25,744 bases of DNA from a virus, in the IMG/VR virus record IMGVR_UViG_3300020428_000072, positions 1 through 25,744 of that record; one strand, written 5' to 3'. Under the pieces are notes generated by a model. That model did not search any database. It saw nothing but the letters and a program-made list of their open reading frames with translations, and was not told the origin of the DNA. A program made the position numbers and the translations under genes. Shown piece after piece: positions 1,348 through 25,437 of the stretch (its first letter is position 1; every line of letters starts with the position of its first letter).

Positions 1348-1536
1348 ATGAAAGAAGAAACTGCTGCTGAGAAGTGGGATCGTGGAAAGACTTTAATGTT
1401 AGAGTCTTTATACAAACCAGATACTAAACTCAGAGGTTGTGCTCACAACCAAGGGTGTTATGATGAACTAATGAAAGTTCGTGATTTAGTAGTAGAATAT
1501 GTAAGGACTTTAGAAGATGTACAAAGCACTACCTGA
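1348..1536 (+). CDS. Hypothetical protein, 62 aa
   Basis: A small, largely helical protein rich in Glu and Lys, with one Cys pair spaced by six residues (GCAHNQGC). It starts two bases after the upstream stop and its 3' end overlaps the SET-domain gene by 20 bases. No family recognised. It may be an adaptor or simply one of the many small cyanophage accessory proteins. Confidence 0.6.
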   Translation: MKEETAAEKWDRGKTLMLESLYKPDTKLRGCAHNQGCYDELMKVRDLVVEYVRTLEDVQSTT

Positions 1537-1810: not shown

Positions 1811-1955
1811 AGCATCTCAATTTATACTTAATTTCCTTTTAAGTGAGGAGATTACTAGTAAACTTAGATCTAAAGCAGAGAGTGAAGGAATAGATATGCT
1901 AGATCTTAAGAGAACTAGGAAGAGTGTGATAAATTATTTGGAGGAGATGTCATGA
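1803..1955 (+). CDS. Hypothetical protein, 50 aa
   Basis: The ATG at 1803 overlaps the SET gene's stop, and the TGA at 1953-1955 overlaps the next ATG (ATGA). The product is a charged helical peptide (LLSEEITSKLRSKAESEGID, then LKRTRKSVINYLEEMS) with no membrane segment. The exact fit between two stop/start overlaps is the main evidence that it is a real gene. Function unknown. Confidence 0.65.
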   Translation: MSKASQFILNFLLSEEITSKLRSKAESEGIDMLDLKRTRKSVINYLEEMS

Positions 1956-2503: not shown

Positions 2504-3321
2504 TGATTAAAGTACCTCATGAGTTCCAGTTACATGTAACCCATTCTTGTAATTTAACTTGTGAGGGTTGCACACACTATATGAATCAGGGTCATAGTGG
2601 AAGTATAACACTAGAAGATGCTGATGAGTGGATGAGTAATTGGAATAGAAAAGTTGTACCTAAGAGATTTACTCTAATGGGTGGTGAACCTTCACTTCAT
2701 CCAAAGTTAGGGGATTTTGTGCTGCTTGCTAGAGAGAAGTTTAAACATTCAGATATTGAGATTGTTAGTAATGGATTCTTTTTACATAATCATCCAGATT
2801 TATGGAAGATATTAGTAGATACTGGAACAGTATTAGGTGTATCTGTTCATAGTCAAACTGATGATGTATATGTGGAGAAGTTTAAACCTGTATATAATTT
2901 AATGAAGGAGTGGATTAAGAAAGGTGCAAGGGTAGAATTAAGACCATCTATTGTTAACTGGCAGAGACAGTATAAAGGATATGGAGATAACATGGAACCA
3001 TATGAAGATGGTGATCCAGTATCTAGTTGGTCTAATTGTGTATCTAAGTTGTGTGTTCAATTATATCAAGGTAAACTATGGAAGTGTCCTGGTTTAGCAT
3101 ACCTACCTTTACAGGCAGAGAAGTATGATTTATCTGATAAGTGGGATCTATATTTAAAGTATAGACCACTGGATAAATATTCTACAAAAGCAGAGATTAA
3201 AAAGTTTTTTTATCGTAAGGCAGAGATATATTGTAGCATGTGTCCTGCTAAGGTAGAATCTTTTAAACCAGAAGATCCACTTCTACCTGTATCATATTGG
3301 AAAAGAAAATATGAAAATTGA
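2503..3321 (+). CDS. Radical SAM protein with C-terminal auxiliary-cluster cysteines (copy 1)
   Basis: The 272-residue protein has the radical SAM signature C-x3-C-x2-C at Cys16, Cys20 and Cys23 (CNLTCEGC). A GGEP motif at 60-63 contacts the SAM methionyl group. C-terminal cysteines (C179, C184, C195 in GKLWKCP, and C244/C247 in CSMCP) resemble a SPASM/Twitch-type auxiliary iron-sulfur cluster, as found in enzymes that modify peptides or carbohydrates. Reaction and substrate cannot be read. It is clearly paralogous to the protein at 5244-6071; C179, C195 and the CSMCP pair are conserved in both, while C184 is not. TAATG upstream and an 11-base overlap downstream put it inside a coupled operon with oxygenase-like genes. 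Confidence 0.88.
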   Translation: MIKVPHEFQLHVTHSCNLTCEGCTHYMNQGHSGSITLEDADEWMSNWNRKVVPKRFTLMGGEPSLHPKLGDFVLLAREKFKHSDIEIVSNGFFLHNHPDLWKILVDTGTVLGVSVHSQTDDVYVEKFKPVYNLMKEWIKKGARVELRPSIVNWQRQYKGYGDNMEPYEDGDPVSSWSNCVSKLCVQLYQGKLWKCPGLAYLPLQAEKYDLSDKWDLYLKYRPLDKYSTKAEIKKFFYRKAEIYCSMCPAKVESFKPEDPLLPVSYWKRKYEN

Positions 3322-3970
3322 TTGGCAACCACCAATACATGATGATCCTAGAATTGTAGAACATTTTGATTTTTGTGGTAATACGATTTATAGAGCATAT
3401 AATTTATTGAGTCCATATGTTAGGAATCAATTGGTAGAGGAGATTGAGGATGAATTGGAACAGCATGAGGATAAATGGGATAGGTGTACTGAAGTTACTA
3501 ATCACTTGGTTAATAGGAAGTTGTGGCATATGCAATCTTGGAGATTATTCTTCAAATTAATTAAAAAGCATCTGTATGATTATTCTAATCTAGTTGGTGA
3601 TGATAGTCTGAAGAAACTTCAAGTTGCTTCATGCTGGGCAAAAAGAATGAAGGGTGTAACTCAGAAATTATATGATAATCAACTATACATAAACTATGGT
3701 AACACACATAAGCATGAATATTTTAATCTTGGAATGATATATTATCTCAGGAATCCTTCTAGAATCTATGGTACACTTATAGAGAATGATAATAGGGAGA
3801 TAATTATTCCAGGTGATGAGAATTCATTGTTGATACATCATTCAGATATTAATCATCAACCAGTTAATCCAGAACCATTGGTTGCTGAGAACTATTATAG
3901 GTGTGTTCTAGTCATTGACTTTATTGATCCACTTAAGTTAGAATACTTCAAGAAAAGAAATGCCGAGTAG
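3311..3970 (+). CDS. 2OG-Fe(II) oxygenase-like protein, 219 aa
   Basis: The second half looks like a double-stranded beta-helix. H133-K-H135 is followed by EYFNLGMIYYLRNP, then IPGDENSLLIHHSDINHQPV with distal His182, and Arg197 in a final strand (YYRCVLVIDFI). This pattern resembles the family of the protein at 1952-2503 but is more diverged, so activity is less certain. The first 110 residues are charged and helical with no recognised motif. It overlaps the radical SAM gene by 11 bases and the next gene by 11 bases. Confidence 0.6.
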   Translation: MKIDWQPPIHDDPRIVEHFDFCGNTIYRAYNLLSPYVRNQLVEEIEDELEQHEDKWDRCTEVTNHLVNRKLWHMQSWRLFFKLIKKHLYDYSNLVGDDSLKKLQVASCWAKRMKGVTQKLYDNQLYINYGNTHKHEYFNLGMIYYLRNPSRIYGTLIENDNREIIIPGDENSLLIHHSDINHQPVNPEPLVAENYYRCVLVIDFIDPLKLEYFKKRNAE

Positions 3971-4199
3971 TTTTGAACGCATAATGCATATCACTGTCCT
4001 TAACAAGATTAAGGATAAAGATATATCCAGTTTATCTGGTGATGAACTTGACTGGTTAAAGAGTAGACCAGACATTATGAATGTTGTTACTGAAGCAGCA
4101 AAGTATAATAGACGAAGAGATGATTTCTATTATAATGATGTTATCTCTGGTACTATAGAAGAGATTTTAATTGATCTAGATTTACAATCAGATGTATAA
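3960..4199 (+). CDS. Hypothetical protein, 79 aa
   Basis: A small, mixed-charge, mainly helical protein wedged between two oxygenase-like genes with overlaps at both ends. It has no Cys and no membrane segment. Visible features are a Lys/Asp-rich N-terminal half, a basic patch (KYNRRRDDFYY) and an acidic C-terminus (EEILIDLDLQSDV). As the smallest protein inside the radical SAM cassette it is the obvious place to look for a substrate or carrier peptide, but nothing in its sequence shows a leader/core structure. Confidence 0.65.
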   Translation: MPSSFERIMHITVLNKIKDKDISSLSGDELDWLKSRPDIMNVVTEAAKYNRRRDDFYYNDVISGTIEEILIDLDLQSDV

Positions 4200-4740
4200 G
4201 AAATTAAACGAGGAATGGCAGATAAATCATCTTATCAAAAGTGGTAAGAAGATAGAGTATGGTATTGATACACCAATAGGATTTGCTGGAATTAGATATT
4301 CATATGTTCAGACAAAACAAGAGAATGAACTACTTCAAGTAATACCATCAAGGTATAGAGATAAGTGTACTCTATCATTAATGGAAGTTAATCATAAGAT
4401 ACCTGCACATACTGATAGTGGCATTGAAGCAATAATTAATTTTTATATTAGAACTGATAGGATGCGTACTCAGTTCTATCATCCAAGAGATGATGTTGAG
4501 ACTGTTCAAATTGCTAACCAAACTGATGGTGCAATATTCCATGATAAGTATCTTAAGAAGTCTAGTAGATTCATGGCACATCCAGGAGAGGCATATCTTT
4601 TGAATGTATCACATCCACATGCACTGATACCATCACAGAAAGGTCCAATAAAGAGAACAGCAATTTGTATGCAGTTACTTGATACAAGTTGGAGTGAAGC
4701 AATAGATATGTTAAAAGAGACGGGGTACATTGATGATTGA
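4192..4740 (+). CDS. 2OG-Fe(II) dioxygenase-like protein, 182 aa
   Basis: Residues 73-75 are H-T-D in a context typical of the iron site (KIPAHTDSG). His141/His143 (NVSHPHAL) and Arg155 (RTAICMQL) follow at the spacing expected for the distal His and the 2OG-binding Arg. The arrangement resembles aspartyl/asparaginyl-hydroxylase-like beta-helix proteins. The target is unknown. The first 60 residues have no recognised motif. The start at 4192 lies in an 8-base overlap with the upstream gene, and the stop overlaps the next ATG by 8 bases. Confidence 0.7.
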   Translation: MYKKLNEEWQINHLIKSGKKIEYGIDTPIGFAGIRYSYVQTKQENELLQVIPSRYRDKCTLSLMEVNHKIPAHTDSGIEAIINFYIRTDRMRTQFYHPRDDVETVQIANQTDGAIFHDKYLKKSSRFMAHPGEAYLLNVSHPHALIPSQKGPIKRTAICMQLLDTSWSEAIDMLKETGYIDD

Positions 4741-5251
4741 GATAATTGATGATTATCTAGCAGAACATGAGCATCGCCATATTCATGATTATTTTACAGG
4801 AGCAATGGATGATGGTACTCTTAACAATTCTTGTGCTTGGGTGTACATACCATTTACATCAACCGATTGGACTGCTAATGGTGAGAGGTTCCACTTCGCT
4901 CAAATAATATATGCACAACATCAAATAATTAGTTCTGCATTTAATCTAATGACTCCTATCATTAAACGTGAGAAGATGACTGCTATTGCTAGGATCAAAG
5001 CAAATTGTGTTATGAGAACTAGTGAGTTGGATGTTTATGATGATGAATTTCATACAGATTTTACAGGTACTTTAACTACAGGAATCTATTATATAAATTC
5101 AAATGATGGATATACATTATTTGAAGATGGTACTAAATGTGAGAGTAGAGCAAATAGATTTTGTAGATTCCCATGTGAGACAAGACATACAGCAACTACA
5201 TGTACTAATACAAATCGTAGGTTACTGATCAACTTTAATTACCATGCATGA
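4733..5251 (+). CDS. 2OG-Fe(II) oxygenase, 172 aa
   Basis: A well-formed 2OG oxygenase: H107-T-D109 (EFHTDF), a strand GIYYINSNDGYT, a loop FEDG, distal His152 (ETRHTATT) and Arg162/163 (NRRLLINFNYH). This H-x-D...H...R order with the YYINSNDG strand is characteristic of phage prolyl-hydroxylase-like proteins. The ATG at 4733 was preferred to an in-frame TTG at 4730 because it is the only ATG near the upstream stop. The gene ends in an 8-base overlap with the second radical SAM gene, repeating the oxygenase-then-radical-SAM order seen at 1952-3321. Confidence 0.82.
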   Translation: MIEIIDDYLAEHEHRHIHDYFTGAMDDGTLNNSCAWVYIPFTSTDWTANGERFHFAQIIYAQHQIISSAFNLMTPIIKREKMTAIARIKANCVMRTSELDVYDDEFHTDFTGTLTTGIYYINSNDGYTLFEDGTKCESRANRFCRFPCETRHTATTCTNTNRRLLINFNYHA

Positions 5252-6071
5252 CATTGAGCAGTTAGAGTTACACGTTACCCATGCATGTAATTTTACTTGT
5301 GAGGGATGTTCGCACTATTCTAATCATGGTCATTTTGGTAATATATCATTAGATGATATAGAGAATTGGTTGTATGCTTGGAGTGAGAGGATAAGACCAA
5401 AGACATTAACTATACTTGGTGGAGAACCAACATTAAATAAGGATTTGCCTGAGATTGTTTATATGGTTAGGGCAATATACCCTGATCCTTTTACTCATAT
5501 AGATGTTATATCCAATACAACTGGATTACATCTACATCCTACATTACCACAGATGCTTCTAGCAGCAGGTGCTACTCTAGCAGTATCAATCCATAGTAAA
5601 GAACATCCAAATTATATCAAGAAGTTTAAGAGTGGGTATCAACTTGCTAAACAATGGAAGAATGACCTTGGTGTGACTGTGGAGTTCTGGGATACTAATA
5701 AGGAATGGGTTAGACAATACAAAGGATTTGGTGATACAATGATGCCATTCGAGGATAATAATCCTAGGAAGAGTTGGGAGGTTTGTATCTCAAAGTATGC
5801 GATGCAGTTGCATGAGGGTAAACTATGGAAGTGTCCAGCATTGGCATATTTACCCATGCAAGCAAAGAAGTATAATCTATCAGAGAAGTGGGAACCATAC
5901 TTAAAGTATAAACCATTGGATGTGGATTGTACTGATGATGAACTGGAAGAGTTTTTAAATAGAGAGGATGAATCAACTTGTTCAATGTGTCCAATGAATC
6001 GTGATGTATATACCAAACCTGATCCAACATTACCTGTAAGTCATTATGAGAAACTATACGGAAGAGTATAA
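5244..6071 (+). CDS. Radical SAM protein with C-terminal auxiliary-cluster cysteines (copy 2)
   Basis: The 275-residue paralogue of the protein at 2503-3321; aligned by eye they share roughly half their residues. C15-x3-C19-x2-C22 (CNFTCEGC) binds the SAM cluster, and GGEP follows about 40 residues later. The C-terminal block repeats QYKGFGD, GKLWKCPALAYLP and CSMCP. Of copy 1's extra cysteines, the one before Q-L-x-x-G-K-L-W (C184) is Ala here, so the auxiliary cluster probably uses the conserved positions only. Reaction unknown; the architecture is that of peptide- or sugar-modifying radical SAM enzymes. Its 3' end overlaps the SGNH-like gene by 26 bases. Confidence 0.88.
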   Translation: MHDIEQLELHVTHACNFTCEGCSHYSNHGHFGNISLDDIENWLYAWSERIRPKTLTILGGEPTLNKDLPEIVYMVRAIYPDPFTHIDVISNTTGLHLHPTLPQMLLAAGATLAVSIHSKEHPNYIKKFKSGYQLAKQWKNDLGVTVEFWDTNKEWVRQYKGFGDTMMPFEDNNPRKSWEVCISKYAMQLHEGKLWKCPALAYLPMQAKKYNLSEKWEPYLKYKPLDVDCTDDELEEFLNREDESTCSMCPMNRDVYTKPDPTLPVSHYEKLYGRV

Positions 6072-6786
6072 TCTCTTTAAACTTAATCACCCATTTATAA
6101 ATCTCTTTAGTATCAGTAATAGACCTGAGACTAAAGACTGGTATGATCAGGATACTAAAGAACGTGCTAAGAAGAATTATACTCCTGAGTGGAAGTATGC
6201 TACCAAACGTGTAGAGTATCATGTTAATTCTGATGGTTATCGTACAAAGGAATGGTCTAAGATTCACTGGAAGAAATCTATAATTGTATTGGGATGCTCC
6301 TATGTGTATGGTGTTGGTGTTGCTGAAGATGAAACTATATCACATCAATTAGAGGATATAACAGGTCATCCTGTAATCAACATGGGTGTACCTGGATCTT
6401 CACCAACATTTACAATACATAATCTCTCATGTTTATTGTCACGATATAATCCCAAGGGTGTGGTGATTGGATGGCCTGGATCTGGTAGAGCACCATACTA
6501 TTCTGATGAGGTAATTCATTGTGGTAATTGGGCAAAGGATGTTGCAGGTATGGGATTAGCATGGAGATATAATAAGAGTCATGGTGAGATAACTTCTCAT
6601 CTGTGCAGACAGATTGCTCAACAGTTATGTCATGATACATCATATGCTGACTTCACTCTCTTTAGGGATAACCAGATAGGTGCAGAGTACATACCACAAG
6701 TGGATTATGGTAGAGATATGGCACATGCTGGGTGTGAGACTTATAACAACGTAGCAGAGTATGTTGCTGGACAATTGGTATTATGA
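6046..6786 (+). CDS. SGNH/GDSL-hydrolase-like protein, 246 aa
   Basis: The strand IIVLGCSYVYGVGV (nucleophile Ser85) matches SGNH block I. VINMGVPGSSP supplies the block II Gly, IGWPGSGR sits where block III is expected, and D224-M-A-H227 fits the catalytic Asp-x-x-His pair. A preceding NSDGYRTKEW segment also occurs in SGNH-like proteins. Such enzymes remove or transfer acyl groups on polysaccharides and lipids. Block III lacks an obvious Asn, so activity is not assured. It ends the radical SAM/oxygenase cassette, hinting at a glycan or acylated substrate, which is inference. No signal peptide is visible, so it should act in the cytoplasm or on virions. Confidence 0.7.
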   Translation: MRNYTEEYNLFKLNHPFINLFSISNRPETKDWYDQDTKERAKKNYTPEWKYATKRVEYHVNSDGYRTKEWSKIHWKKSIIVLGCSYVYGVGVAEDETISHQLEDITGHPVINMGVPGSSPTFTIHNLSCLLSRYNPKGVVIGWPGSGRAPYYSDEVIHCGNWAKDVAGMGLAWRYNKSHGEITSHLCRQIAQQLCHDTSYADFTLFRDNQIGAEYIPQVDYGRDMAHAGCETYNNVAEYVAGQLVL

Positions 6787-6792
6787 TATAAT
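6781..6792 (+). promoter_or_regulatory. Candidate extended -10 promoter TGATATAAT
   Basis: The 12-mer TTATGATATAAT straddles the stop codon of the SGNH-like gene and lies 22 bases before the next ATG. It contains an extended -10 (TG-n-TATAAT). The identical 12-mer occurs at 12233-12244 in another short intergenic gap. No convincing -35 box is visible. Confidence 0.4.
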
Positions 6793-6814
6793 CTTAGATA
6801 GTTAAGGATAGTTT

Positions 6815-6955
6815 ATGGGAACTAAACAGTTTAAGACCACCGATAATAAAGGACGAGAGTCCATTTGGGAGTGGGAAGAGACACCTGAGTTGATTAAAGC
6901 TCTTGAGGTTCTTCATAAAAACAGTGATTCAACATCTAAATCTAAAGATGGATAA
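6815..6955 (+). CDS. Hypothetical protein, 46 aa
   Basis: This reading frame fills an otherwise empty gap. The product is hydrophilic, with a WEWEETPELIKALEVL helix flanked by charged tails. Its TAA overlaps the next gene by 8 bases (ATG at 6948), and a candidate promoter lies just upstream. No family recognised. Confidence 0.6.
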   Translation: MGTKQFKTTDNKGRESIWEWEETPELIKALEVLHKNSDSTSKSKDG

Positions 6956-7160
6956 AGTACCTCTAAATATGGAAGAACTGACTGACGCTGCTGATCAGTT
7001 CTTCCCACACTTCGATTTTGTTATGACCAGATTACCAGAAGGAACATCTGTTAAGGATATTCTTCATGTAATGGATGTCGTTGCTGACATTGGTTATAGT
7101 AATCGTGATCGTAAGACTAAAATAGTAGGATTCGTTCACTGTGAAGATCCCGTGGAATAG
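6948..7160 (+). CDS. Hypothetical protein, 70 aa
   Basis: A longer TTG-started frame from 6903 is open, but the ATG at 6948 overlaps the upstream stop and gives a natural N-terminus (MDKVPLNMEELTDAADQFFP). The product is acidic and probably alpha-helical with a short beta end (KTKIVGFVHC). No known motif. The stop codon lies inside the first of two hairpins that precede talC. Confidence 0.65.
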   Translation: MDKVPLNMEELTDAADQFFPHFDFVMTRLPEGTSVKDILHVMDVVADIGYSNRDRKTKIVGFVHCEDPVE

Positions 7161-7196
7161 GTTTGACACCTATGATTTTTGGAAGGCAGTCTTCCA
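7157..7196 (+). promoter_or_regulatory. Two tandem 6-bp hairpins upstream of talC
   Basis: Hairpin 1 is ATAGGT (7157-7162) with ACCTAT (7168-7173) and loop TTGAC, followed by GATTTTT. Hairpin 2 is TGGAAG (7180-7185) with CTTCCA (7191-7196) and loop GCAGT. Both stems are perfect and both loops are five bases. They end 20 bases before the talC ATG. Hairpin 1 with its T run could be a weak intrinsic terminator; hairpin 2 could shape the talC leader or define an RNA end. Confidence 0.45.
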
Positions 7197-7216
7197 CAAC
7201 ATTACTAAAATTAAAA

Positions 7217-7879
7217 ATGAGATTCTTTTTAGACACCGCAAACATAGAAGAGATTGAGTCACGTTATGATACAGGACTTATTGATGGGGTAACAACAAAC
7301 CCTACCTTAATACTTAAATCAGGTCGTACTCAACAAGATGTAATCAAAGAGATTGCACAAAGATATCCTGCTATGGAGAGTATATCTGCTGAGGTAGTCG
7401 CTGAGACTGCTGATGAGATGATAGCACAAGCAGAGACTTACTACCCAATCTCACCTGCTGTTACTATTAAAGTTCCATGTACAGTTGAGGGACTTAAAGC
7501 ATGTAAGAGATTGAGTGATAATGGTATTCCAACCAATGTAACACTTGTATTCTCTGTTGCTCAAGCATGTTTAGCAATGAAGGCAGGTGCTACATACCTC
7601 TCACCATTTGTAGGTAGACTTAATGACAATAGTTTTAGTGGTGTTGAGTTAATCAAAGCAATCTGTGGTGTTCAGAAGGAACATAAGATGCCTACTAAAA
7701 TCTTAGCAGCATCTATTAGAGAAGCACATCAAGCATCACGTTGCTTGTTATATGGTGCTCAGGTATTAACACTACCACCAAAGACATTCGATAATATGTA
7801 CAAGAGTGTACTGACTAGAGAAGGTCTTGATCTATTCAATCGTGACTATGCGGAGGCAAGTTTAAATGCTGGAAATTAA
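7217..7879 (+). CDS. talC: Transaldolase (TalC/fructose-6-phosphate-aldolase-like)
   Basis: A 220-residue short transaldolase matching the usual size of the TalC/FSA group. It starts MRFFLDTANIEEI and has GVTTNPTL (24-31) for the phosphate-side loop. Schiff-base Lys85 lies in AVTIKVP, and GIPTNVTLVFS and GATYLSPFVGRLND follow. In cyanophages this enzyme is a well-known auxiliary metabolic gene that drives the host pentose phosphate pathway, supplying NADPH and ribose for phage DNA. An upstream TTG start at 7163 is rejected because it would translate the two hairpins and lacks the family N-terminus. The 3' end overlaps the next gene by 14 bases. Confidence 0.97.
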   Translation: MRFFLDTANIEEIESRYDTGLIDGVTTNPTLILKSGRTQQDVIKEIAQRYPAMESISAEVVAETADEMIAQAETYYPISPAVTIKVPCTVEGLKACKRLSDNGIPTNVTLVFSVAQACLAMKAGATYLSPFVGRLNDNSFSGVELIKAICGVQKEHKMPTKILAASIREAHQASRCLLYGAQVLTLPPKTFDNMYKSVLTREGLDLFNRDYAEASLNAGN

Positions 7880-8054
7880 TACTACCAAGAACAAAGAACT
7901 TGGTTTATGGGAGATAACTGCTACTCTTGATCTTCCACCTATAACTGTAACTAGGTTAAAGAAGGATAAGAATGACATTCAATATGAATTGCGTAATGCA
8001 TTTAGTGAAGTCATTCAAGAGATTGTAGAGAAGCATTGTGATGAGGAGATGTAA
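7866..8054 (+). CDS. Hypothetical protein, 62 aa
   Basis: A small protein with two predicted beta strands (GLWEITATLDLPPITVTRL) and then a long amphipathic helix (YELRNAFSEVIQEIVEKHC). It overlaps talC by 14 bases and the next gene by one (TAATG). No recognised family. Co-expression with talC is likely; a role in carbon metabolism is not implied by the sequence. Confidence 0.7.
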   Translation: MLEINTTKNKELGLWEITATLDLPPITVTRLKKDKNDIQYELRNAFSEVIQEIVEKHCDEEM

Positions 8055-8422
8055 TGGCAAAGATCTATGAGTCTCCTGATGGTGGCAAGACTGTCTACGT
8101 GAGGGATACTGATACTCCAGACAAAGAGAGGGAACTCTTATTTGATTATAAGTTGATGGATGCTGAATTACAAGCAAACTCACCTTATAATGATGGGTGG
8201 ACTCAAGAGATGTATCGTGAGTATGCATTAGAGCGTAGACAAGAATTGCAGATGCCTCAAGTTGAAGAGGAACTTTGGCCCGTGTGGATCAAGATGAATC
8301 TAACTGAGGAAGCAATGGAGAGATATGGTAGTTGGAAGGCAATGCAAGATGATGGTTGGGAATTGACTGAGGATGGGTTCTGGATAAATGACGGATCTAG
8401 AAAGGTGCTAAATAAAGAATAA
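8054..8422 (+). CDS. Hypothetical protein, 122 aa, Trp-rich
   Basis: A soluble acidic protein whose second half is rich in Trp (ELWPVWIKMN, YGSWKAM, DDGWELTEDGFW). The N-terminal part looks like a small beta hairpin (GKTVYVRDTD). No catalytic signature. It ends 17 bases before the first collar-like gene and just ahead of a late-promoter-like motif, so it probably closes the talC transcription unit. Confidence 0.7.
   Translation: MAKIYESPDGGKTVYVRDTDTPDKERELLFDYKLMDAELQANSPYNDGWTQEMYREYALERRQELQMPQVEEELWPVWIKMNLTEEAMERYGSWKAMQDDGWELTEDGFWINDGSRKVLNKE
8408..8414 (+). promoter_or_regulatory. T4-type late-promoter-like motif CTAAATA
   Basis: CTAAATA lies 25 bases before the ATG at 8440. The same heptamer precedes the starts at 9620 and 20858, each at one of the few non-overlapping gene junctions. 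It resembles the T4 late -10 element TATAAATA. Assignment is by similarity and recurrence. Confidence 0.45.
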
Positions 8423-8439
8423 AGGAATAACATTATACA

Positions 8440-9006
8440 ATGTCGGCAATTCTTACAGCGACGGGTGTCACCTTTGGTGATTCTACCTCGTTAAATTCTA
8501 AATACGCTGTGGTAGAGCAGGGTGCTGCTATGGTATTCTTCCAAGCAGCAGCTCCGACTGGATGGGTTAAAGAGAACGCACATAACGATAAAGCATTACG
8601 ACTTGTTAATGGTACTGGTGGTGGATTTGGTTTTGGTGGTACGTCGGGTGCAGGAGGGTTGACCTTCTCACAAGTATTCCCAAATGCTACATCTTCATTG
8701 GCAGTACCTTTTAGTGCGACTACAACTGTAACAGGTAATGTTGGTGGTACTACCCTAGCAATCTCTCAGATACCTGATCATACTCACAACTCACTCACTG
8801 GTGGTGCTGCTAGTGCTTCGGGTGGTGGTGCTAACTTCAGGGTTACGGGTAGTGCTCCTACTGGTAATGTTGTATCTCCTAGTGGACAGATAGGTCAACC
8901 ACATGATCACCCCTTCAGTGGACAAGCAACATTTACTGCTAATGGTGCAGGTCAGATTGATCTACGACTTCAGTATGTTGATGTACTAATATGCACATTT
9001 AGTTGA
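8440..9006 (+). CDS. Tail-collar/short-tail-fibre-like protein (copy 1), 188 aa
   Basis: The N-terminus ATGVTFGDSTSLNSKY is typical of cyanophage fibre proteins. It is followed by a collar-domain segment (AMVFFQAAAPTGWVKE then NDKALRLVNGTGGG). Gly/Ser/Thr-rich beta sequence carries H-x-H-type clusters (PDHTHN and PHDHPFSG), like the metal-binding histidines of T4 short tail fibre gp12. The C-terminus (LQYVDVLICTFS) matches the neighbouring paralogue. It is probably a virion surface protein involved in adsorption or baseplate decoration. It is much shorter than gp12, so it is more a knob module than a whole fibre. It is probably expressed late. Confidence 0.8.
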   Translation: MSAILTATGVTFGDSTSLNSKYAVVEQGAAMVFFQAAAPTGWVKENAHNDKALRLVNGTGGGFGFGGTSGAGGLTFSQVFPNATSSLAVPFSATTTVTGNVGGTTLAISQIPDHTHNSLTGGAASASGGGANFRVTGSAPTGNVVSPSGQIGQPHDHPFSGQATFTANGAGQIDLRLQYVDVLICTFS

Positions 9007-11386: not shown

Positions 11387-11565
11387 TTATGGAATCTTTT
11401 GTTATAGAATTAAAAGTAGGTGATAAGATTGACGTTGGTAAGTTTAGAAACGTTAGAACAGTTATCACTGATATAAGTTTGGATGATCATGGGCAACCAG
11501 TAGTTCATACGGATAAGGGTGAACGTAAAGCATTGGCGTTCAGACTTAGAAAGTTAGATGTATAG
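11383..11565 (+). CDS. Small beta-barrel-like hypothetical protein, 60 aa
   Basis: Alternating hydrophobic residues (VIELKVGDKIDVGKFRNVRT then VVHTDKGERKALAFRLRKL) suggest a small SH3/KOW-like barrel with basic faces. The ATG at 11383 overlaps the upstream stop; a second ATG at 11389 is possible. The stop overlaps the next oxygenase gene by 8 bases. Function unknown. Confidence 0.7.
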   Translation: MIMESFVIELKVGDKIDVGKFRNVRTVITDISLDDHGQPVVHTDKGERKALAFRLRKLDV

Positions 11566-12211
11566 TATACTCCAACCATTCGGTCCCATGATATATCATG
11601 GGCAATGCTCAGAAGAATTTTTAAAGTTCCTTAATGAATCATTAGATCCTACAAGGACAGAAGCAGAGAATATGTCACATGTTCTTGCAGGTAATATTAG
11701 TGAACAGTATAAATTGATTGGTACACCACAAACATTTGTGGATCATGTGTATCCACATGTTTTTGCATATGTCGCAGCATGTCATGAGAGACATAATGCA
11801 TCTGTTCTTGATCCTGCTGCTGGTGGATCTGGAGAAGTGGTACAGGAGATTCACTTTACTATGCCTGTAGCACCTTGGATTAATTATCAAAAGAAGTATG
11901 AGTTTAATCCATTGCATATGCATGGTGGTGAGTTGAGTGCTGTTGTAATGGTGGATATACCAAAAGAGATTGAGGAATTTTACTATGAGTCGCATGGCAC
12001 TACTAATATGCCAGCAGCAGGTCTATTAGAATTTGTTGATGGTAAGGGTGGATATATGTATTCTGGGTCACATAAGGTAGTACCTAAAACAGGTGACTTC
12101 TTTATCTTCCCTGCTGACTTAAAGCATGGAGTATATCCATTTAGTGTGGATGTAGAACGTATTAGTTTATCCTTTAATATTTCTGGTGTGGAAGTCAATC
12201 CTGATAAGTGA
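11558..12211 (+). CDS. 2OG-Fe(II) oxygenase family protein (tandem copy 1), 217 aa
   Basis: H120-M-H122 lies in PWINYQKKYEFNPLHMHGG and is followed by LSAVVMVDIP. The distal part has KTGDFFIFPADLKHGVYP with His190, and Arg201 is in the final strand (VERISLSFNI). This is the same family as the protein at 1952-2503 and is plainly paralogous to the next gene: both begin with PFG-x-MIYH and share LAGNI, PWINYQK and FPADLKH. Predicted to hydroxylate an unknown target in the infected cell. A beta-strand insertion (residues 143-172) distinguishes it from the shorter family members. Confidence 0.82.
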   Translation: MYSILQPFGPMIYHGQCSEEFLKFLNESLDPTRTEAENMSHVLAGNISEQYKLIGTPQTFVDHVYPHVFAYVAACHERHNASVLDPAAGGSGEVVQEIHFTMPVAPWINYQKKYEFNPLHMHGGELSAVVMVDIPKEIEEFYYESHGTTNMPAAGLLEFVDGKGGYMYSGSHKVVPKTGDFFIFPADLKHGVYPFSVDVERISLSFNISGVEVNPDK

Positions 12212-12232
12212 GGAAGTGCTAATAATATATCT

Positions 12233-12251
12233 TTATGATATAATATATAAT
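12233..12251 (+). promoter_or_regulatory. Candidate promoter with TGATATAAT and a second TATAAT
   Basis: The gap 12212-12272 contains TTATGATATAAT (extended -10, TATAAT at 12239-12244) and another TATAAT at 12246-12251, 21 to 28 bases before the ATG at 12273. The 12-mer is identical to that at 6781-6792. No clear -35 box. Confidence 0.4.
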
Positions 12252-12272
12252 ATACAAAAGTAGTAGGCATTT

Positions 12273-12944
12273 ATGCTCTGGTTTGATAAAGAACATTGCG
12301 TTGATAAATGCATATTGCATCCATTTGGGTCAATGATTTATCATACTCAAATACAATCTGAATTCTTAGGATTATTGCAGAATACAGCAAAGGAGTCTAA
12401 AGATAATGGAAAGGATAGAGGTAATACCCTTGCAGGTAACATAGCATCTCAACGACAGGCAGTGGTTGATGTAGAACAGTTTATGGATCTATTGTATCCT
12501 CATGTTTTGCATTATGCGAGAACATGTTATAATAGACTCGAAACTAATTTAACAGGTAAACCATCAAACCCAGTTCCTAACATCAAGTTGCATCTTGGTG
12601 ATGGTCCTTGGATCAACTATCAAAAACAGGGTGAGTTTAATCCTGTTCATGCACATGGAGGAATCCTTAGTGCTGTTGTTATGATAGATGTACCAGAGGT
12701 GATTGCTACAGAAGCAGATAACCTTGACTATCAAACTAATATGCCATGTCCAGGTCAACTAGAGTTCATTAATGGACCTACTGGTTGGTTAGAGACAGGA
12801 ACATTTAGAGTCGTTCCTAAGACAGGAGATATATATCTATTCCCTGCTGATCTTAAACATTGCGTGTATCCATTTACCAGTGATGTTGAACGAGTTACTA
12901 TGAGTTTTAATGTATTTGACATAGAGAAGGTCTATGATGAATGA
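12273..12944 (+). CDS. 2OG-Fe(II) oxygenase family protein (tandem copy 2), 223 aa
   Basis: A paralogue of the preceding gene with the same motif order: PWINYQKQGEFNPVHAHGG (H126-A-H128), LSAVVMIDVP, KTGDIYLFPADLKHCVYP (His196) and Arg207 in VERVTMSFNV. The N-terminus is about ten residues longer and has a different first segment (LWFDKEHCVDKC). Iron-site residues are intact, so both copies are probably active, perhaps on different positions or targets. It has its own candidate promoter and overlaps the bifunctional gene downstream by 11 bases. Confidence 0.82.
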   Translation: MLWFDKEHCVDKCILHPFGSMIYHTQIQSEFLGLLQNTAKESKDNGKDRGNTLAGNIASQRQAVVDVEQFMDLLYPHVLHYARTCYNRLETNLTGKPSNPVPNIKLHLGDGPWINYQKQGEFNPVHAHGGILSAVVMIDVPEVIATEADNLDYQTNMPCPGQLEFINGPTGWLETGTFRVVPKTGDIYLFPADLKHCVYPFTSDVERVTMSFNVFDIEKVYDE

Positions 12945-14127
12945 AAAATTAACAGAGAACAATTATCTTATTGTTCCTAACTTTATCTCTAATGAGAGAG
13001 CATCAGCATTATCAGAAGACTTTAATGAGTATGCTGTGACTCATGATATAAAGAATGATCCTCAAGTGGATAAGTGTCTTGGTAAGTATGATTATATCTC
13101 GTTTGTAGAGTTATTATGTGAGAAGAATGTGCAGGTATCTCAACTGGTTGGTGAGACTGTGCTACCAACATATACTTACGCAAGGATATATGAGAAGGGT
13201 GCAGTTCTAACTCCACATGTTGATAAGGAAGAGTGTGAGATATCAATAACAGTTAATCTTGAGTGTGATACACCTTGGTCAATATGGATACAGACACCTA
13301 AAGGTGAGAAGAGAGAGGTGAAGTTGAATCCTGGCGATGCTATGATATACTTTGGTATGACTGCACCGCATTGGAGAGATGCGTTTAAAGGTAATGCATG
13401 TACTCAAGTCTTTATGCACTATGTTAGAAGCAGAGGACAGTATGCCACATTTTATTTTAATAAGGATCGTAAGGTCATGACAGATAGTATGCGACCAGTA
13501 CATAAAGCACCACTATATGCTGAACCAGCAAATGTTATAATCTCAGAGGACTTTAATACACCAAAGAGTAAAAGTCTCGACGAGTATGTGAAGGTGTATG
13601 ATAATATATTATCTGATGAAGAGTGTGATAAGATATTAGCAGAGTATGGTGACTGTAGTGACTGGTATGATGCTATGGTTGGTAATGGTGATACTAAGAA
13701 TAATGTTAGGAACTGTGAGATAGTACACATATCAACAACTGATATAGTTAATAAGAATTTTGATAGAAGGAAGGAGATTGATAACATAGTTTTTAATAAA
13801 GCAGGAGTCGCAGCACAGAGATATATTGAAGAGTTCCCTATGTGTACTATTAGTACTGACAGTGGGTATGATCTCTTGAGATATAATCAAGGTGGATTCT
13901 ATACCATACACACAGATAATTATAGTAAGAGTCCAAGGACAGTCTCTATGTCATTGATGTTGAGTGATGATTATGAGGGTGGTGAGTTTGCATTTTTTGA
14001 GAGAGATATGATAATTAAACCTTCTAAAGGATCTGCTGTAGTCTTCCCTTCTAACTTTTTGTATCCACATGAGATCATGCCAATTCTCTCTGGAACTAGA
14101 TATAGTATCATAACTTGGTTCACATAA
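12934..14127 (+). CDS. Two-domain 2OG-Fe(II) oxygenase, 397 aa
   Basis: Two complete oxygenase modules lie in one chain. Domain 1 (about 1-170) has H95-V-D97, GDAMIYFGMTAPHW with His146, and a strand TQVFMHYV where the 2OG-binding basic residue is not obvious. Domain 2 (about 210-397) is a classic prolyl-4-hydroxylase-type fold. It has H326-T-D328 (YTIHTDNY), SLMLSDDYEGGEFAFF, KGSAVVFPSNFLYPHE with His379, and Arg389 in TRYSIITWF. The two halves are too different to be a recent internal duplication, so a fusion of two families is more likely. Start 12934 or 12937 (ATGATG). It overlaps the upstream oxygenase gene, making three oxygenase genes in a row. Confidence 0.85.
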   Translation: MMNEKLTENNYLIVPNFISNERASALSEDFNEYAVTHDIKNDPQVDKCLGKYDYISFVELLCEKNVQVSQLVGETVLPTYTYARIYEKGAVLTPHVDKEECEISITVNLECDTPWSIWIQTPKGEKREVKLNPGDAMIYFGMTAPHWRDAFKGNACTQVFMHYVRSRGQYATFYFNKDRKVMTDSMRPVHKAPLYAEPANVIISEDFNTPKSKSLDEYVKVYDNILSDEECDKILAEYGDCSDWYDAMVGNGDTKNNVRNCEIVHISTTDIVNKNFDRRKEIDNIVFNKAGVAAQRYIEEFPMCTISTDSGYDLLRYNQGGFYTIHTDNYSKSPRTVSMSLMLSDDYEGGEFAFFERDMIIKPSKGSAVVFPSNFLYPHEIMPILSGTRYSIITWFT

Positions 14128-19967: not shown

Positions 19968-20041
19968 TGTGGTATGTAATAGGTTGGACAATAGTTACAA
20001 TGTGGTTACTATCTAAGTTTGGTGTCTTTAAAAAGAAATGA
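19964..20041 (+). CDS. Membrane microprotein, 25 aa
   Basis: A 25-codon frame with ATGA overlaps at both ends and an AAGGAGG ribosome site upstream. It is a single hydrophobic helix (MMWYVIGWTIVTMWLLSKFG) with a Lys-rich end (VFKKK). The strong ribosome site argues that it is translated. Start at 19964 or 19967. Confidence 0.62.
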   Translation: MMWYVIGWTIVTMWLLSKFGVFKKK

Positions 20042-20835
20042 ATAGTGGATTCTTAGATGTATTAAATCAAGAGCAGATTGATATTGTTTTAAAAGATATT
20101 GATGCTCTTAGTGATTGGTGGATATCAAGAGGTATCTACTCAACTGAGGGTGGATTCACTCCTAATCAAAGTAATCCTGTTGATTTTTATACTCTTGGTG
20201 CTGCAACATATATTGATGGTATAAGCAGCATAGAAGAATACTATCGTTATACTAAGGAACAGAATCCTATATTTGCACAGTATTTTGGTGGATTATATCG
20301 TGAGGTGATGGTTGCATTTGATAAGGTTCTTGGACGTTGTGCATTGTGGGATCATCTTGCATATCCAGGATTCCATGTGTTTAGTGCTAAACCTAATGAA
20401 CCACCAAAGATGGCAACCAAAATGTATATGGAGCAACCAAGTGCAACTATACATTTAGATCTACAACATGAGAAGCATGAGTTTTTATTTGATAATTCAT
20501 TTAAAGAGATAGATTATGAAAATGTGTTATCATTTACTCTACCATTATGTCTACCTATGAATGGTGGTGGTCTGAATACTTGGGAAGAGGAGTCAATGAA
20601 GCAGTATGAGATTGATAATGAATATACTAAGCACATGAAGGAATTGGATTATAGTCAATGGGGTGATTATGGTGAACCAACAGTAGTACCATATAAAGTA
20701 GGTCAGATGTTTTGGTTCACAGGTAAGTTAGTTCATCAAATTGCGCCAGGTTTTAACCTTGATTTTGATGATAAGAGAATTAGTTTGCAAGGTCATGGTG
20801 TGAAGTGTGATGACAATTGGATACTATACTTCTAA
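20038..20835 (+). CDS. 2OG-Fe(II) oxygenase-like protein, 265 aa
   Basis: A double-stranded-beta-helix candidate: H139-L-D141 (TIHLDLQHEKHEF), a hydrophobic strand FTLPLCLPMNGGG, KVGQMFWFTGKLVHQIAP with His233, and Arg247 in KRISLQGHG. The 130-residue N-terminal extension is unusual and aromatic (WWISRG, FYTLGAATYIDG). The spacing of HxD and distal His (about 92) is longer than in the other oxygenase-like proteins here because of an insertion. Probably catalytic, target unknown. It precedes two glycosyltransferase-like genes. Confidence 0.62.
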   Translation: MNSGFLDVLNQEQIDIVLKDIDALSDWWISRGIYSTEGGFTPNQSNPVDFYTLGAATYIDGISSIEEYYRYTKEQNPIFAQYFGGLYREVMVAFDKVLGRCALWDHLAYPGFHVFSAKPNEPPKMATKMYMEQPSATIHLDLQHEKHEFLFDNSFKEIDYENVLSFTLPLCLPMNGGGLNTWEEESMKQYEIDNEYTKHMKELDYSQWGDYGEPTVVPYKVGQMFWFTGKLVHQIAPGFNLDFDDKRISLQGHGVKCDDNWILYF

Positions 20836-20857: not shown

Positions 20858-22195
20858 ATGGCACTGAGATTAAACGAGGAGCATCAATTTACTGGTAGTG
20901 GATTGGGATACCAAATGTCATCATATGCTTTGATGAGGTCATTATGTAACCGATCAGGGTTAAAGTATGCTGCTGGTAAGTTTGAGTTGCTTGCACTTAA
21001 GAATACTTTTGAGTCATTAGAGATTGATGAAGAAGCACATGATAAGATGGTAGCACCAGAGATATTAAGACAGGGTAGAAGGACATTTAGTGATGATACA
21101 CCAATAGATGAGGACATTGTAATAGAATTTTTGGATCAGGAACAGTTTGAGGATATAATACCAAGAGCGAAGGATGGTGGTATATTATTTGGGTATCCAA
21201 CACCAATTAATAGTATTGATACAACACAGATAACAGATATTAAAAAGCATTTTACATATAGAGGTGACATCCAAGACATATGTAAAGCATGGAAGCAAAA
21301 GATGTTTGGTGATACTCCTGTAATCTCTATGCATTTTAGGAGAGGTGACTTCACTGAGATCTCAAGTGGCATGTTCTTAATTGATGATGATTATTATATT
21401 GATGCACTTAAGCAAATGCCTGATGGTTTGCCAGTGCTAATCTTTACTAATGATAAGGATTATATCTTAAACAATCCTAAGTGGCAGAGTGATAGGTTCA
21501 CTTTGGTTACTGATCTAAGCAATGATAATAATATGATTGATTGTGAATGGATGCAGATGATTGATGAGATTATTGATGAGTCTGGTATGGGTAGATTCTA
21601 TTACAAGATGGCAATGATGTTAGCATCACAGAGAACTGGTGTACCTGTTCAACAAATTGCTAAGGAACTTGCACCAGCAGGTAAGAAGAAGATAAAGAAT
21701 AATTGGTATAATTATTCATTCGACCATTGTATGATGCATTTGTGTGATTATCATATAATGGCAAACAGCACCTATGGTCTATGGGGTGTTGAGATGTCAA
21801 ATAGTAAGAAGGTAGTGTATCCTAAGTATTGGATGCAAGAGGATATTCATGGTGATGAGAGTCTTGCTCAACGTATTAAAGACTTTAATGCTGACGAACC
21901 TGGTTCATTCTCAAATTGGGTCAACAAAGACTCACTTGCAGCAACAACAGAACAAACTATTGATTCAAAGATAGATGATGCTAGTGGTAAAAAGCAATGG
22001 ACACATACTTTAAAACCAGACATGAATGGTTTTGACCAGACTGCGACTATCGCTGGTCATTTTATAAATGATAAGTGGGTGGGATTAGATAATCCAGATC
22101 AACGTGCATTTACATTTGTCAAGATGCCTACAGTATCATCTGACGACTTTAATCCATTCATAGATAATAGTGTTCCATTACCACATGAAAAATGA
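20858..22195 (+). CDS. GT11-type fucosyltransferase-like glycosyltransferase with C-terminal extension, 445 aa
   Basis: The N-terminus GSGLGYQMSSYALMRSL corresponds to GGLGNQMFQYA of alpha-1,2-fucosyltransferases (GT11). H159-F-R161-R162-G-D164 is the nucleotide-sugar motif H-x-R-R-G-D. LCDYHIMANSTYGLWGVEMS matches the family's D-F-x-L-M...NSTFSWWGA end. The substrate is probably GDP-fucose or a similar GDP-sugar. Residues beyond about 360 are a polar extension (HTLKPDMNGFDQTATIAGHF) of a type not usual for GT11, maybe a binding or virion-anchoring domain. It may decorate fibres or modify the host surface. A late-like promoter precedes it. Confidence 0.85.
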   Translation: MALRLNEEHQFTGSGLGYQMSSYALMRSLCNRSGLKYAAGKFELLALKNTFESLEIDEEAHDKMVAPEILRQGRRTFSDDTPIDEDIVIEFLDQEQFEDIIPRAKDGGILFGYPTPINSIDTTQITDIKKHFTYRGDIQDICKAWKQKMFGDTPVISMHFRRGDFTEISSGMFLIDDDYYIDALKQMPDGLPVLIFTNDKDYILNNPKWQSDRFTLVTDLSNDNNMIDCEWMQMIDEIIDESGMGRFYYKMAMMLASQRTGVPVQQIAKELAPAGKKKIKNNWYNYSFDHCMMHLCDYHIMANSTYGLWGVEMSNSKKVVYPKYWMQEDIHGDESLAQRIKDFNADEPGSFSNWVNKDSLAATTEQTIDSKIDDASGKKQWTHTLKPDMNGFDQTATIAGHFINDKWVGLDNPDQRAFTFVKMPTVSSDDFNPFIDNSVPLPHEK

Positions 22196-22299
22196 TTGTG
22201 GTTAATTGGGAAAATATCAGACTATTTACTATAATAGTATTGGGTATAATCTGGTTTTATCTATTAAATACTGAATTGAGGAGTAATGACGATGACTGA
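22192..22299 (+). CDS. Membrane microprotein, 35 aa
   Basis: It starts in the ATGA overlapping the glycosyltransferase stop. One transmembrane helix (IRLFTIIVLGIIWFYLLN) has a short N-terminal polar end and a charged tail (TELRSNDDD). Overlaps the next gene by 8 bases. Function unknown. Confidence 0.62.
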   Translation: MIVVNWENIRLFTIIVLGIIWFYLLNTELRSNDDD

Positions 22300-22495
22300 A
22301 CGAGGAGAGCGATTAGTAAAGTCTTATCTAATTGCTATTACAGAATTAACAAAACAAACACGATTAAATAAAGCACAGATCGGTGCTAAAGCATTAGCAG
22401 GATTCTTAAAGGCATGTGTTGATGAGTGTGATAGTCTTACATACAAATCTACGCAGGAGTTATATAAAATAGCAGATGAGATAGAGAATGAGTAA
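22292..22495 (+). CDS. Conserved cyanophage-type hypothetical protein, 67 aa
   Basis: MTERGERLVKSYLIAITELT and KQTRLNKAQIGAKALAGFLK, then CVDECDSLTYKSTQEL, form a compact helical protein with basic and acidic faces, of a type I recall in marine phages. The ATG at 22292 has GAGGAG eight to nine bases upstream; an ATG at 22286 (two residues longer) is too close to it. The TAA overlaps the methyltransferase ATG by 8 bases. Confidence 0.72.
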   Translation: MTERGERLVKSYLIAITELTKQTRLNKAQIGAKALAGFLKACVDECDSLTYKSTQELYKIADEIENE

Positions 22496-23543
22496 GAATT
22501 CTAAAGCACATTATTCTACTGCGTTAAAAGAATTCCAAACACTTAAAGGTTCTCATAATTTAGAATATTATTATGATGGATTGGATGGTTTGATGGAGGA
22601 TCATGCACGTAATAGATTTTATGATGAGATTTTAAAAGATTGTAAAGGGAAGCGTTGTGTTGATGTTGGTGCTGGTAGTGGATTACTAGCATTTTTGGCA
22701 TTGAAGCATGGTGCTAAGGAAGTTATATGTTTTGAACAGAATACTGCATCTGCAAATCATATTGAGCAATGTAGGAAGAAGATGATGATAAGTGGTGATA
22801 GATTATCAGTAATAAATGATGAGTTTAGAATAAGTAGATGGAATAGAGGAGAGTATGATCTTGGTGATAATATTGATGTTCTATTCCATGAGATTATGGG
22901 TAGTTACATATGGAATGAATTGATGTTGAATACATTTGATGAGGAGATTAATCAAGAACACCCATGTTTTATTCTTCCTAGTCATTATCATTTAAAATTT
23001 AGTGTCGTTGCTCCTAACGTACAATTATATCGTCAACTAATTGATTATCAACATGATCTATGTAAAGATAAGGATTTAGTACAAGGAAAACCTGGCGATT
23101 ATAAGGAGTGGGAGTTTGAATTGGATACTGGTGTGGATATTGGTCAGGAGTTTATTGATTATTATAAGACGGTGAGACATAATCGTAGGTTTGAGATTTT
23201 ATCTCCATTTAAACTGAAGACTATTCCAAATTGTAAGTTGTTGGATACTCTTCATGCTAAGTCAAAGACTATTCATAGTAGTAGTGTTGATATAAATGAT
23301 CGGAGTTCCCTATTTAATATAACATTTGATCTACCTCAGATTAATAGTGGTTATTTAATAATGATACGACCATCATGTAGTGATCTAAGGAATAGTATTG
23401 TATTTGATTTTAAGGATAGTACATCATTTACTGGGTATGGTTCACCAATAGTTGTACCACCACCAAAAGAATATAATTTTAGGAGATTTACGTTCAGTCT
23501 GTTTAATAAAATAATGCAGATAGATGAGCATGGTATCTACTGA
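22488..23543 (+). CDS. Protein arginine methyltransferase (PRMT)-like methyltransferase, 351 aa
   Basis: Residues 27-48 (YYYDGLDGLMEDHARNRFYD) match the PRMT N-terminal YF-x-SY...HEEMLKD-x-xR segment. Motif I is VDVGAGSGLLAF (58-69), and FEQN (82-85) supplies the acidic ribose ligand. E135 and E144 (HEIMGSYIWNE) have exactly the nine-residue spacing of the PRMT double-E loop that holds the guanidinium. A C-terminal beta-rich half follows, though no THW loop is visible. Family members methylate arginine in proteins with SAM. In a phage next to glycosyltransferases it may target virion or host proteins. TAATG and TGATG overlaps tie it to both neighbours. Confidence 0.82.
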   Translation: MSKNSKAHYSTALKEFQTLKGSHNLEYYYDGLDGLMEDHARNRFYDEILKDCKGKRCVDVGAGSGLLAFLALKHGAKEVICFEQNTASANHIEQCRKKMMISGDRLSVINDEFRISRWNRGEYDLGDNIDVLFHEIMGSYIWNELMLNTFDEEINQEHPCFILPSHYHLKFSVVAPNVQLYRQLIDYQHDLCKDKDLVQGKPGDYKEWEFELDTGVDIGQEFIDYYKTVRHNRRFEILSPFKLKTIPNCKLLDTLHAKSKTIHSSSVDINDRSSLFNITFDLPQINSGYLIMIRPSCSDLRNSIVFDFKDSTSFTGYGSPIVVPPPKEYNFRRFTFSLFNKIMQIDEHGIY

Positions 23544-24544
23544 TGTATATAATGAGATGTGATAAGGTCTATTCGCATTATGAGGATAGTAGATCTTATA
23601 AACTGGATGGTTATGATCCATACCAATGTGATCCTGTTGACTGTGGGTTTGGGCAGAAGATATTATTTTGGAGACAAGCAGCATTGTTAAATCAGTTGAG
23701 TGGTCATAAGTTTACTATTCAATTTAAAGAATCAATATTCCCTGAACATATATTCTTTGACTTCCCATATACCTCATTTGTAAGTGATGATCTATATGAT
23801 CCTGATGTATTGGATACATTAGATTATGTTGGTGTAAAACGTCTTGTAAATGCATTTAAAAAGAGAAAATCACTAAAATTAGGTAAAAATAAGAATATAC
23901 TTATAAATTCATGGGTAATAGATCAACCAAGGGGAGTTAGAATAGGATTTTGGGGTCGATATGATGAACCTACATCTGCGATTAAACTAAGGTATCCAGA
24001 GTATGAGAATGTATTTAAAAAAGCATTTGGTAAGTTTTATACTATTCATTTAAGAAGAATGAATGGTATTTGGTTTGAGGATAGTGATTTAGATGGTATG
24101 CCAATATCATTACAATCCATGTTTAAAAGAGATAAGAGTGGTGGACATCCATTAGTTCAGAGTCCTTGGAAGTGGCACATTGGTAAAGAGATTACTCATA
24201 GTGATATATTCAGGTATATACCTGATAAGAACTATTTTAACATAATGGATGAGATTTTAAAGGATGATCCAGAAGCAAAATTTTATATCTGTAGTGATAT
24301 GCCATTAAAATACTATAGGTATTGGGCAAGGAAGTATCCTATCATTACTAGAGATCATATTCTTAATGATTATAAAAAAGCATTAGGTCTTAGGTATCAA
24401 AACTTAACAAAGTATCTCACAGAATTATCACTTGACTTCTTTGCAATGGCATATTCTAAAAGTATCATTGCACATAAAGGATCATCATTAAATATTGCTG
24501 CTTCACAATTCAGGGAAGCACCATTGATAAATGTGGAACACTGA
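23543..24544 (+). CDS. Fucosyltransferase-like glycosyltransferase, 333 aa
   Basis: The N-terminus has CGFGQKILFWRQAALLNQL, like the G-x-G-N-Q start of GT-B O-fucosyl/NodZ-type enzymes. FYTIHLRRMNG carries the H-x-R-R nucleotide-sugar Arg. AKFYICSDMPLKYYRYWAR and SLDFFAMAYSKSIIAHKGSS follow as the donor-side loops of GT23/GT65/GT68-like proteins. Assignment to one family is uncertain. The donor is probably a GDP-sugar. It overlaps the PRMT-like gene by one base, so the methyltransferase and sugar transferase should be made together. Confidence 0.72.
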   Translation: MYIMRCDKVYSHYEDSRSYKLDGYDPYQCDPVDCGFGQKILFWRQAALLNQLSGHKFTIQFKESIFPEHIFFDFPYTSFVSDDLYDPDVLDTLDYVGVKRLVNAFKKRKSLKLGKNKNILINSWVIDQPRGVRIGFWGRYDEPTSAIKLRYPEYENVFKKAFGKFYTIHLRRMNGIWFEDSDLDGMPISLQSMFKRDKSGGHPLVQSPWKWHIGKEITHSDIFRYIPDKNYFNIMDEILKDDPEAKFYICSDMPLKYYRYWARKYPIITRDHILNDYKKALGLRYQNLTKYLTELSLDFFAMAYSKSIIAHKGSSLNIAASQFREAPLINVEH

Positions 24545-24576
24545 TATATAATAAGATATCAAGTATGGTGAGGAAC

Positions 24577-25437
24577 ATGGACACAGAGGAATTAGTAGCA
24601 ATGTACGAAGACAACAGGAAGGGAAGATTAAACGAAGTAGTTCATGAATATTTGAATGATGCAAGTGTAACATCACAAATATTCCTTGAGGATTTGAAGG
24701 GAATTTTGGCAGGTCATGCTGCACATAAAGCAGAAGAGCACAGAAGAGCACAAGTAGCAGCAATCGCTAAATCTGAGGAAGCAGCAAGAGTTGCAGCAGA
24801 GTTAGCGGATAAGGTAGAAGAACAAAATGCTGCACAGTTTGATGCTGATCAAGCAGCACAGTCAATTCATTGGGTTGATGATAGTGTGGTTGCCTATGCA
24901 GGAACAGCATTTGATGCACCTGAGTATTATGCTACTGCTGATACTGGTACAGTGAATATTGATACAAGCATTTATCCACCCGATCATCCATATCATATTG
25001 ATACCACAGTTGGTGCAGGTTCAACCGCAGCATATCCAACTGCAACATATAATGTAGATACCACATTGTATGGTGATGTGAGTATTGCATCAAGTGAAGC
25101 AAATCCTTATGGATATTATGACCATGATCTTGGTGGAGCATTTTATGTTGATGGTCACAGTGATGTGCATCAAGTACCAGAAGAGGTTCAAACATATACT
25201 GCACCACCACAAACAGGAGTGATTGCAGGTTACGCATCAAGTGAAGCAAATCCTGATGGATATTATGGAACTGACCCAACAACATATCCAGTTGGTACAG
25301 CATCAAGTGAAGCAAATCCAACAGGATATTATGATGAACCAAATAATGTAGATCCTCAAACACCTGAGACTTATCCAGTTCCAGAACCAGATTTTGATCC
25401 ATTAGCAGTGCCATCTAAATTTGATGCTCATAACTGA
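24577..25437 (+). CDS. Repeat-containing low-complexity protein, 286 aa
   Basis: The N-terminal 90 residues are helical and Ala/Glu-rich (HAAHKAEEHRRAQVAAIAKS, EEAARVAAELADKVEEQN), a coiled-coil candidate. The rest is Tyr/Pro/Thr/Asp-rich and looks disordered, with three ASSEANP-x-GYY repeats plus TYP, DTT and PEP runs. It resembles a tail-fibre or surface linker rather than an enzyme. Start at 24577 (MDTEELVAMYEDN) has a GAGGA site but only three bases away; 24565 is an in-frame alternative. The TATAAT at 24547-24552 just after the previous stop is a possible promoter. Confidence 0.72.
   Translation: MDTEELVAMYEDNRKGRLNEVVHEYLNDASVTSQIFLEDLKGILAGHAAHKAEEHRRAQVAAIAKSEEAARVAAELADKVEEQNAAQFDADQAAQSIHWVDDSVVAYAGTAFDAPEYYATADTGTVNIDTSIYPPDHPYHIDTTVGAGSTAAYPTATYNVDTTLYGDVSIASSEANPYGYYDHDLGGAFYVDGHSDVHQVPEEVQTYTAPPQTGVIAGYASSEANPDGYYGTDPTTYPVGTASSEANPTGYYDEPNNVDPQTPETYPVPEPDFDPLAVPSKFDAHN
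25087..25332 (+). repeat. Three in-frame copies of an 11-residue repeat
   Basis: The 20-base core GCATCAAGTGAAGCAAATCC occurs identically at 25087, 25234 and 25300, each encoding ASSEANP followed by x-G-Y-Y. The DNA identity exceeds what protein conservation needs, so the copies are recent duplications or are kept alike by recombination. Confidence 0.85.

Follow-up and report, generated by a model that had tools for sequence, protein, structure and literature searches.

The gene described here, from a 25.7-kb virus record (the window, 25,744 nucleotides in full), very likely encodes a protein with the catalytic core of protein arginine methyltransferases (PRMTs), enzymes most familiar from animals and plants, as judged from sequence comparison, and it is reasonably probable that its product is a guanidino-N-methyltransferase acting on protein arginine. 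The window is probably part of a cyanophage genome, as it has genes for heme oxygenase and transaldolase and a short stretch matching Prochlorococcus phage P-SSM7. Its syntenic sister contig, L001, carries a PRMT-like gene 74% identical to that of the window. The limits of the open reading frame were checked against the window sequence and agree with those first given; all features discussed are listed in Table 1.

Catalytic core of the encoded protein

An earlier, sequence-only reading of this DNA had likened motif I, the ribose-binding glutamate and the E-x8-E loop of the protein to those of PRMTs, and all of these residues (D59-VGAGSG, E83 and E135/E144) are indeed present. The double-E loop is an exact E135-x8-E144 inside DVLFHEIMGSYIWNELML (D130-V-L-F-H-E135-I-M-G-S-Y-I-W-N-E144-L-M-L), where M137-G138 and M146-L147 show the MG/ML spacing of PRMTs. 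The N-terminal segment, which had been described as YF-x-SY...HEEML-like, agrees only in part with the PRMT pattern YFxxY...HEEMLxDxxR: D38-x2-R41 is kept, this position having D in 64 and R in 69 of 72 viral groups and being invariant in 15 bacterial PRMTs, but the YF and HEE parts are shortened or absent, since YYYDGLDGLMEDHAR is three residues shorter and without HEE.

Table 1. Features in and around the PRMT-like gene of the window.
Feature	Position	Strand	Remarks
GT11-like (fucosyltransferase-type) glycosyltransferase	20858..22195	+	PHROG 2644 1.4e-28; Pfam GT11 7.6e-4, below cut-off
Hydrophobic 35-aa ORF	22192..22299	+	4-nt overlap with end of GT11-like gene; mechanical ORF only
69-aa ORF	22286..22495	+	function unknown; end overlaps PRMT-like start by 8 nt
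PRMT-like methyltransferase ORF	22488..23543	+	351 aa; homology to PRMTs
D38-x2-R41, D-x2-R of N-terminal PRMT segment (MLxDxxR)	22599..22610	+	
SAM motif I, D59-V-G-A-G-S-G65	22662..22682	+	residues checked
E83, post-I ribose-binding acidic residue	22734..22736	+	E in 63, D in 9 of 72 viral groups
E135, double-E loop Glu 1	22890..22892	+	E in 67/72 viral groups
E144, double-E loop Glu 2	22917..22919	+	E in 45/72, D in 4/72 viral groups
F314-T315-G316, where sister phage proteins carry HWG	23427..23435	+	register uncertain by 1-2 residues
333-aa protein, no recognised family	23543..24544	+	start overlaps PRMT-like stop by one base (TGATG)

Four kinds of sequence search favour PRMTs and bear out the proposed PRMT catalytic core with an intact double-E loop. 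When the single window sequence was searched against PDB sequences with phmmer, CARM1 was found with E = 3e-8, followed by nearly only PRMTs, while a two-sequence profile (window and L001 sister) reached 5e-10 against the same database. A virus-only profile of 10 sequences matched PRMT7 (4e-19), PRMT8 (4e-16) and CARM1 (3e-15), and among the matches listed every PRMT outranked the first non-PRMT (2e-6). Profile-profile comparison with bacterial PRMTs gave a probability of 99.5% and E = 3e-23 over residues 28-192, and the PRMT homology of the window protein is confined to residues of about 28-190. A strict DNA pattern of the loop had one other match in 2.9 million viral contigs, namely the sister L001; in prokaryotes it matched 71 loci, of which 69 encode PRMT-like proteins of several phyla (L005-L075) and two are unrelated Laceyella ORFs. 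Since the phmmer list consists almost entirely of PRMTs and the strict-pattern matches are mostly PRMT-like, the loop of the window protein is more than a chance resemblance.

C-terminal half, THW loop and predicted structure

In the C-terminal half, the PRMT beta-barrel signal was within the shuffled background when scored with a profile built on that region of bacterial PRMTs, and Pfam gave no PRMT_C hit for the phage protein. The THW equivalent, for which a search had been suggested, is absent from the window protein, which has F314-T315-G316 in its place. An HW located 28-37 residues from the C-end is present in 12 of 19 sister groups of the viral clade (0.17 expected from shuffles), often set in L-D-x-G-H-W-G, and the window's subclade reads F-T/S/N-G where the sisters have HWG. 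We take the HW of the sister proteins to be the equivalent of the THW loop, and its presence there, together with the F-T/S/N-G of the window's subclade, points to a THW equivalent that probably once existed in the viral clade and was then lost in this subclade. A substrate-side groove unlike that of known PRMTs is suggested by the absence of HW and by the divergence of the C-terminal half. We do not claim full PRMT membership, because the THW loop was looked for and is absent, and the barrel gave no sequence signal above shuffles.

Structure prediction with AF2 and the two-sequence alignment gave a pLDDT of 32; once bacterial PRMTs were added to the alignment, the Rossmann half was predicted with confidence, and pLDDT was lower than 50 over most residues past 174. 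In a fold search of this model, as proposed in the earlier reading, all matches listed were PRMTs (Z about 15-16) and no small-molecule or RNA methyltransferase was closest, a result that is partly circular because the alignment included bacterial PRMTs.

Viral family and known PRMTs

A relaxed loop pattern yielded two distant viral relatives, L093 and L088; alignment of the first viral relatives led to ten loci and then to more than 100, and removal of near-copies left about 72 divergent groups of viral sequences from IMG/VR, of which a few are doubtful members. The second loop position is acidic in 49 of the 72 groups (the Glu/Asp split and the count for Glu 1 are given in Table 1), with Asp replacing Glu in L098b, L099, L100 and L101. 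A T4-type portal gene was found in three of six family carriers tested, so at least those three are tailed phages rather than viruses of eukaryotes. Searches of INPHARED and plasmids for relatives of the window protein gave no match or noise only; in INPHARED, the L093, L208 and L109 proteins had no match and the L088 protein had two weak, unannotated ones, while the PHROGs search returned weak general methyltransferase matches only. Nothing relevant on phage PRMTs was found in the open literature, and subscription papers may hold an earlier description. The family is a large and so far unnamed one, in uncultured, mostly aquatic phages. Several members occur as tandem PRMT-like gene pairs, i.e., in L098 (4956-5918 and 5932-6894, with E-x8-E in one copy and E-x8-D in the other), L127 and L242, and L093 also carries two copies in tandem.

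In a tree of the core, the window protein is in a virus-only clade (support 100/98) within a larger viral clade (98/96), outside the group formed by bacterial PRMTs and PRMT1/8/CARM1, although support is weak at the deep forks and PRMT7 could not be placed. The sister phage proteins (L102, L104, L115, L117, L133 and others) share with it the core, the double-E loop or a near variant, the length and the virus-only clade; unlike the window protein, they keep HWG near the C-end, and in several of them E-x-M-G is replaced by ETVN or ETVD. With eukaryotic PRMTs (CARM1/PRMT4, PRMT1 and PRMT7) the window protein has in common motif I, the post-I acid, D-x2-R, and E-x8-E with MG and ML, whereas it lacks THW and a recognisable PRMT_C, its N-terminal YFxxY...HEEML is reduced, and it is not nested with PRMT1/8/CARM1 in the core tree.

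Bacterial full-length PRMTs (Acidimicrobiales, Myxococcota, Halieaceae and cyanobacteria) share the core with the phage protein, and the loop of the Acidimicrobiales group, HEQMGDELFNENML, has H-E and N-E in common with the phage loop; identity, however, is only about 15-23%, and prokaryote genomes scanned directly with the alignment of window and sister proteins yielded no match. Unlike the phage protein, the bacterial ones match PRMT_C (9 of 9 strict-loop proteins scanned) and align with eukaryotic PRMTs over the full length (8e-88 for a profile of 38 strict-loop proteins). The statement that classical PRMTs are mainly eukaryotic does not hold, as canonical PRMTs with THW and PRMT_C occur in many bacterial genomes, and it is therefore no reason for surprise at a PRMT-like gene here.

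Gene neighbourhood, proposed function and alternatives

The PRMT-like gene had been placed between two fucosyltransferase-like genes and regarded as translationally coupled to one of them. This is correct for the upstream gene, which is GT11-like (PHROG 2644), but for the downstream gene, searches of Pfam, PHROGs, NCBIfam and PDB sequences gave no match, and a profile comparison did not link it to the upstream GT11-like gene; likewise, the TGATG overlap is real and conserved in L001, although the overlapped gene is not glycosyltransferase-like by any match. L001 also has the same kind of overlap at the start of the PRMT-like gene. Between the window and L001, identity is 74% for the PRMT-like gene and 72% for the downstream gene, against 90-94% for three nearby genes examined; dN/dS is well under 1 for both the PRMT-like and the downstream gene, which for the former means purifying selection.

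In a survey of neighbourhoods across the family, no partner gene recurred beside relatives and in the window. By eye, the neighbours are mostly phage replication and virion-type genes, and partner genes vary by phage. L100 (66-1244) and L101 (4105-5286) have a ketoacyl synthase (FabF-like) gene a short distance upstream of the PRMT-like gene, a class III aminotransferase and 2OG oxygenases adjoin it in L102, and in L104, a 349-kb phage contig, it stands between apparent large and small ribonucleotide reductase genes (3438-8625). The window also encodes the SET protein that had been counted as a second kind of protein methyltransferase, and its SET domain was confirmed (PF00856, 5e-12); it is a stand-alone protein of 97 aa (1517-1810) with NHSEDPNC and GDELFLKY motifs, belonging to PHROG 28741 of unknown function. 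Many 2OG-Fe(II) oxygenase-like genes (860-5251, 11558-14127 and 20038-20835) and two radical SAM genes (2503-3321 and 5244-6071) are also present, possibly a dense set of modification enzymes. Just downstream of the cassette is an ASSEANPxGYY-repeat protein (24565-25437; 8099-8842 in L001), whose units did not register as a tandem repeat in the DNA. No obvious RGG or RxR-rich substrate candidate was seen among the window ORFs.

If the enzyme works as PRMTs are known to, motif I and E83 would bind SAM, while E135 and E144 would bind and polarise a guanidinium group, one nitrogen of which would attack the methyl group; the acceptor would most likely be an arginine side chain of a phage or host protein. 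According to a review, Glu172 and Glu181 of the PRMT7 double-E loop serve as proton acceptors as well as stabilising the transition state, and the Glu181Asp/Gln329Ala variant has an altered product (PMC12471008). The natural Asp of the four viral proteins falls at the position of PRMT7 Glu181, i.e., the second Glu, and the window enzyme keeps both Glu.

The same guanidino chemistry could instead be directed at a small molecule, such as free arginine or another guanidine, feeding the nearby radical SAM, 2OG oxygenase and glycosyltransferase genes, in the manner of SznE, a PRMT-related enzyme of streptozotocin synthesis. The divergence of the substrate-side C-terminal half and the THW loop would agree with this, as would the biosynthetic neighbours elsewhere (ketoacyl synthase in L100 and L101, aminotransferase and 2OG oxygenases in L102), but there is no conserved pathway, the neighbours change from phage to phage and the L104 gene sits between apparent ribonucleotide reductase genes, so we consider it unlikely. 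Still less probable is a PRMT-derived enzyme that modifies a glycan or a sugar intermediate made with the neighbouring glycosyltransferase: the run of overlapping genes begins at the GT11-like gene, and a GT11-like homolog is located about 4.7 kb upstream of the PRMT-like gene in L101 too, yet no glycosyltransferase family recurs beside the relatives in the neighbourhood survey. To our knowledge, a double-E loop has no use on sugars.

The possibility that the protein is an RsmD/PrmA-type class I methyltransferase of rRNA or ribosomal protein, similar to PRMTs only through the Rossmann fold, was raised by PF03602 (Cons_hypoth95, RsmD), the sole Pfam model above cut-off for the window protein (1.5e-6, 28.4 bits vs. 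a cut-off of 24), and by NCBIfam TIGR00095 (5e-8 for the window protein and 2.7e-11 for L098). RsmD is the 16S rRNA m2G966 methyltransferase, and its SAM-binding half is common to the window protein. However, these matches span that half only, the NCBIfam scores (32.8 bits for the window and 44 bits) are far under the cut-off of 117.5, the virus-only profile favours PRMTs by more than 10 orders of magnitude, and HEIMG with the second Glu stands where RsmD has its catalytic N/D-P-P-F/Y motif. RsmD identity was rejected because this motif is absent and the relative score favours PRMTs, and we regard an enzyme of this type as very improbable.

Returning to the protein-arginine reading, we tentatively propose that arginine-methylation enzymes of their own may be encoded by uncultured phages, mostly aquatic and in part T4-type. 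These enzymes would form a deep family derived from PRMTs, in which the double-E loop shows natural Glu-to-Asp changes and THW has been lost; they would target virion or host proteins in the course of infection, and would have escaped notice because none of the members searched was clearly matched in INPHARED or PHROGs. If the enzyme does act on protein arginine, phages would possess their own means of methylating arginine, a modification that has received little attention in phage infection. Natural variants at the second Glu and at THW, which are positions bearing on product type in PRMTs, are also found in the family, and its deep viral branch bears on how PRMTs arose.
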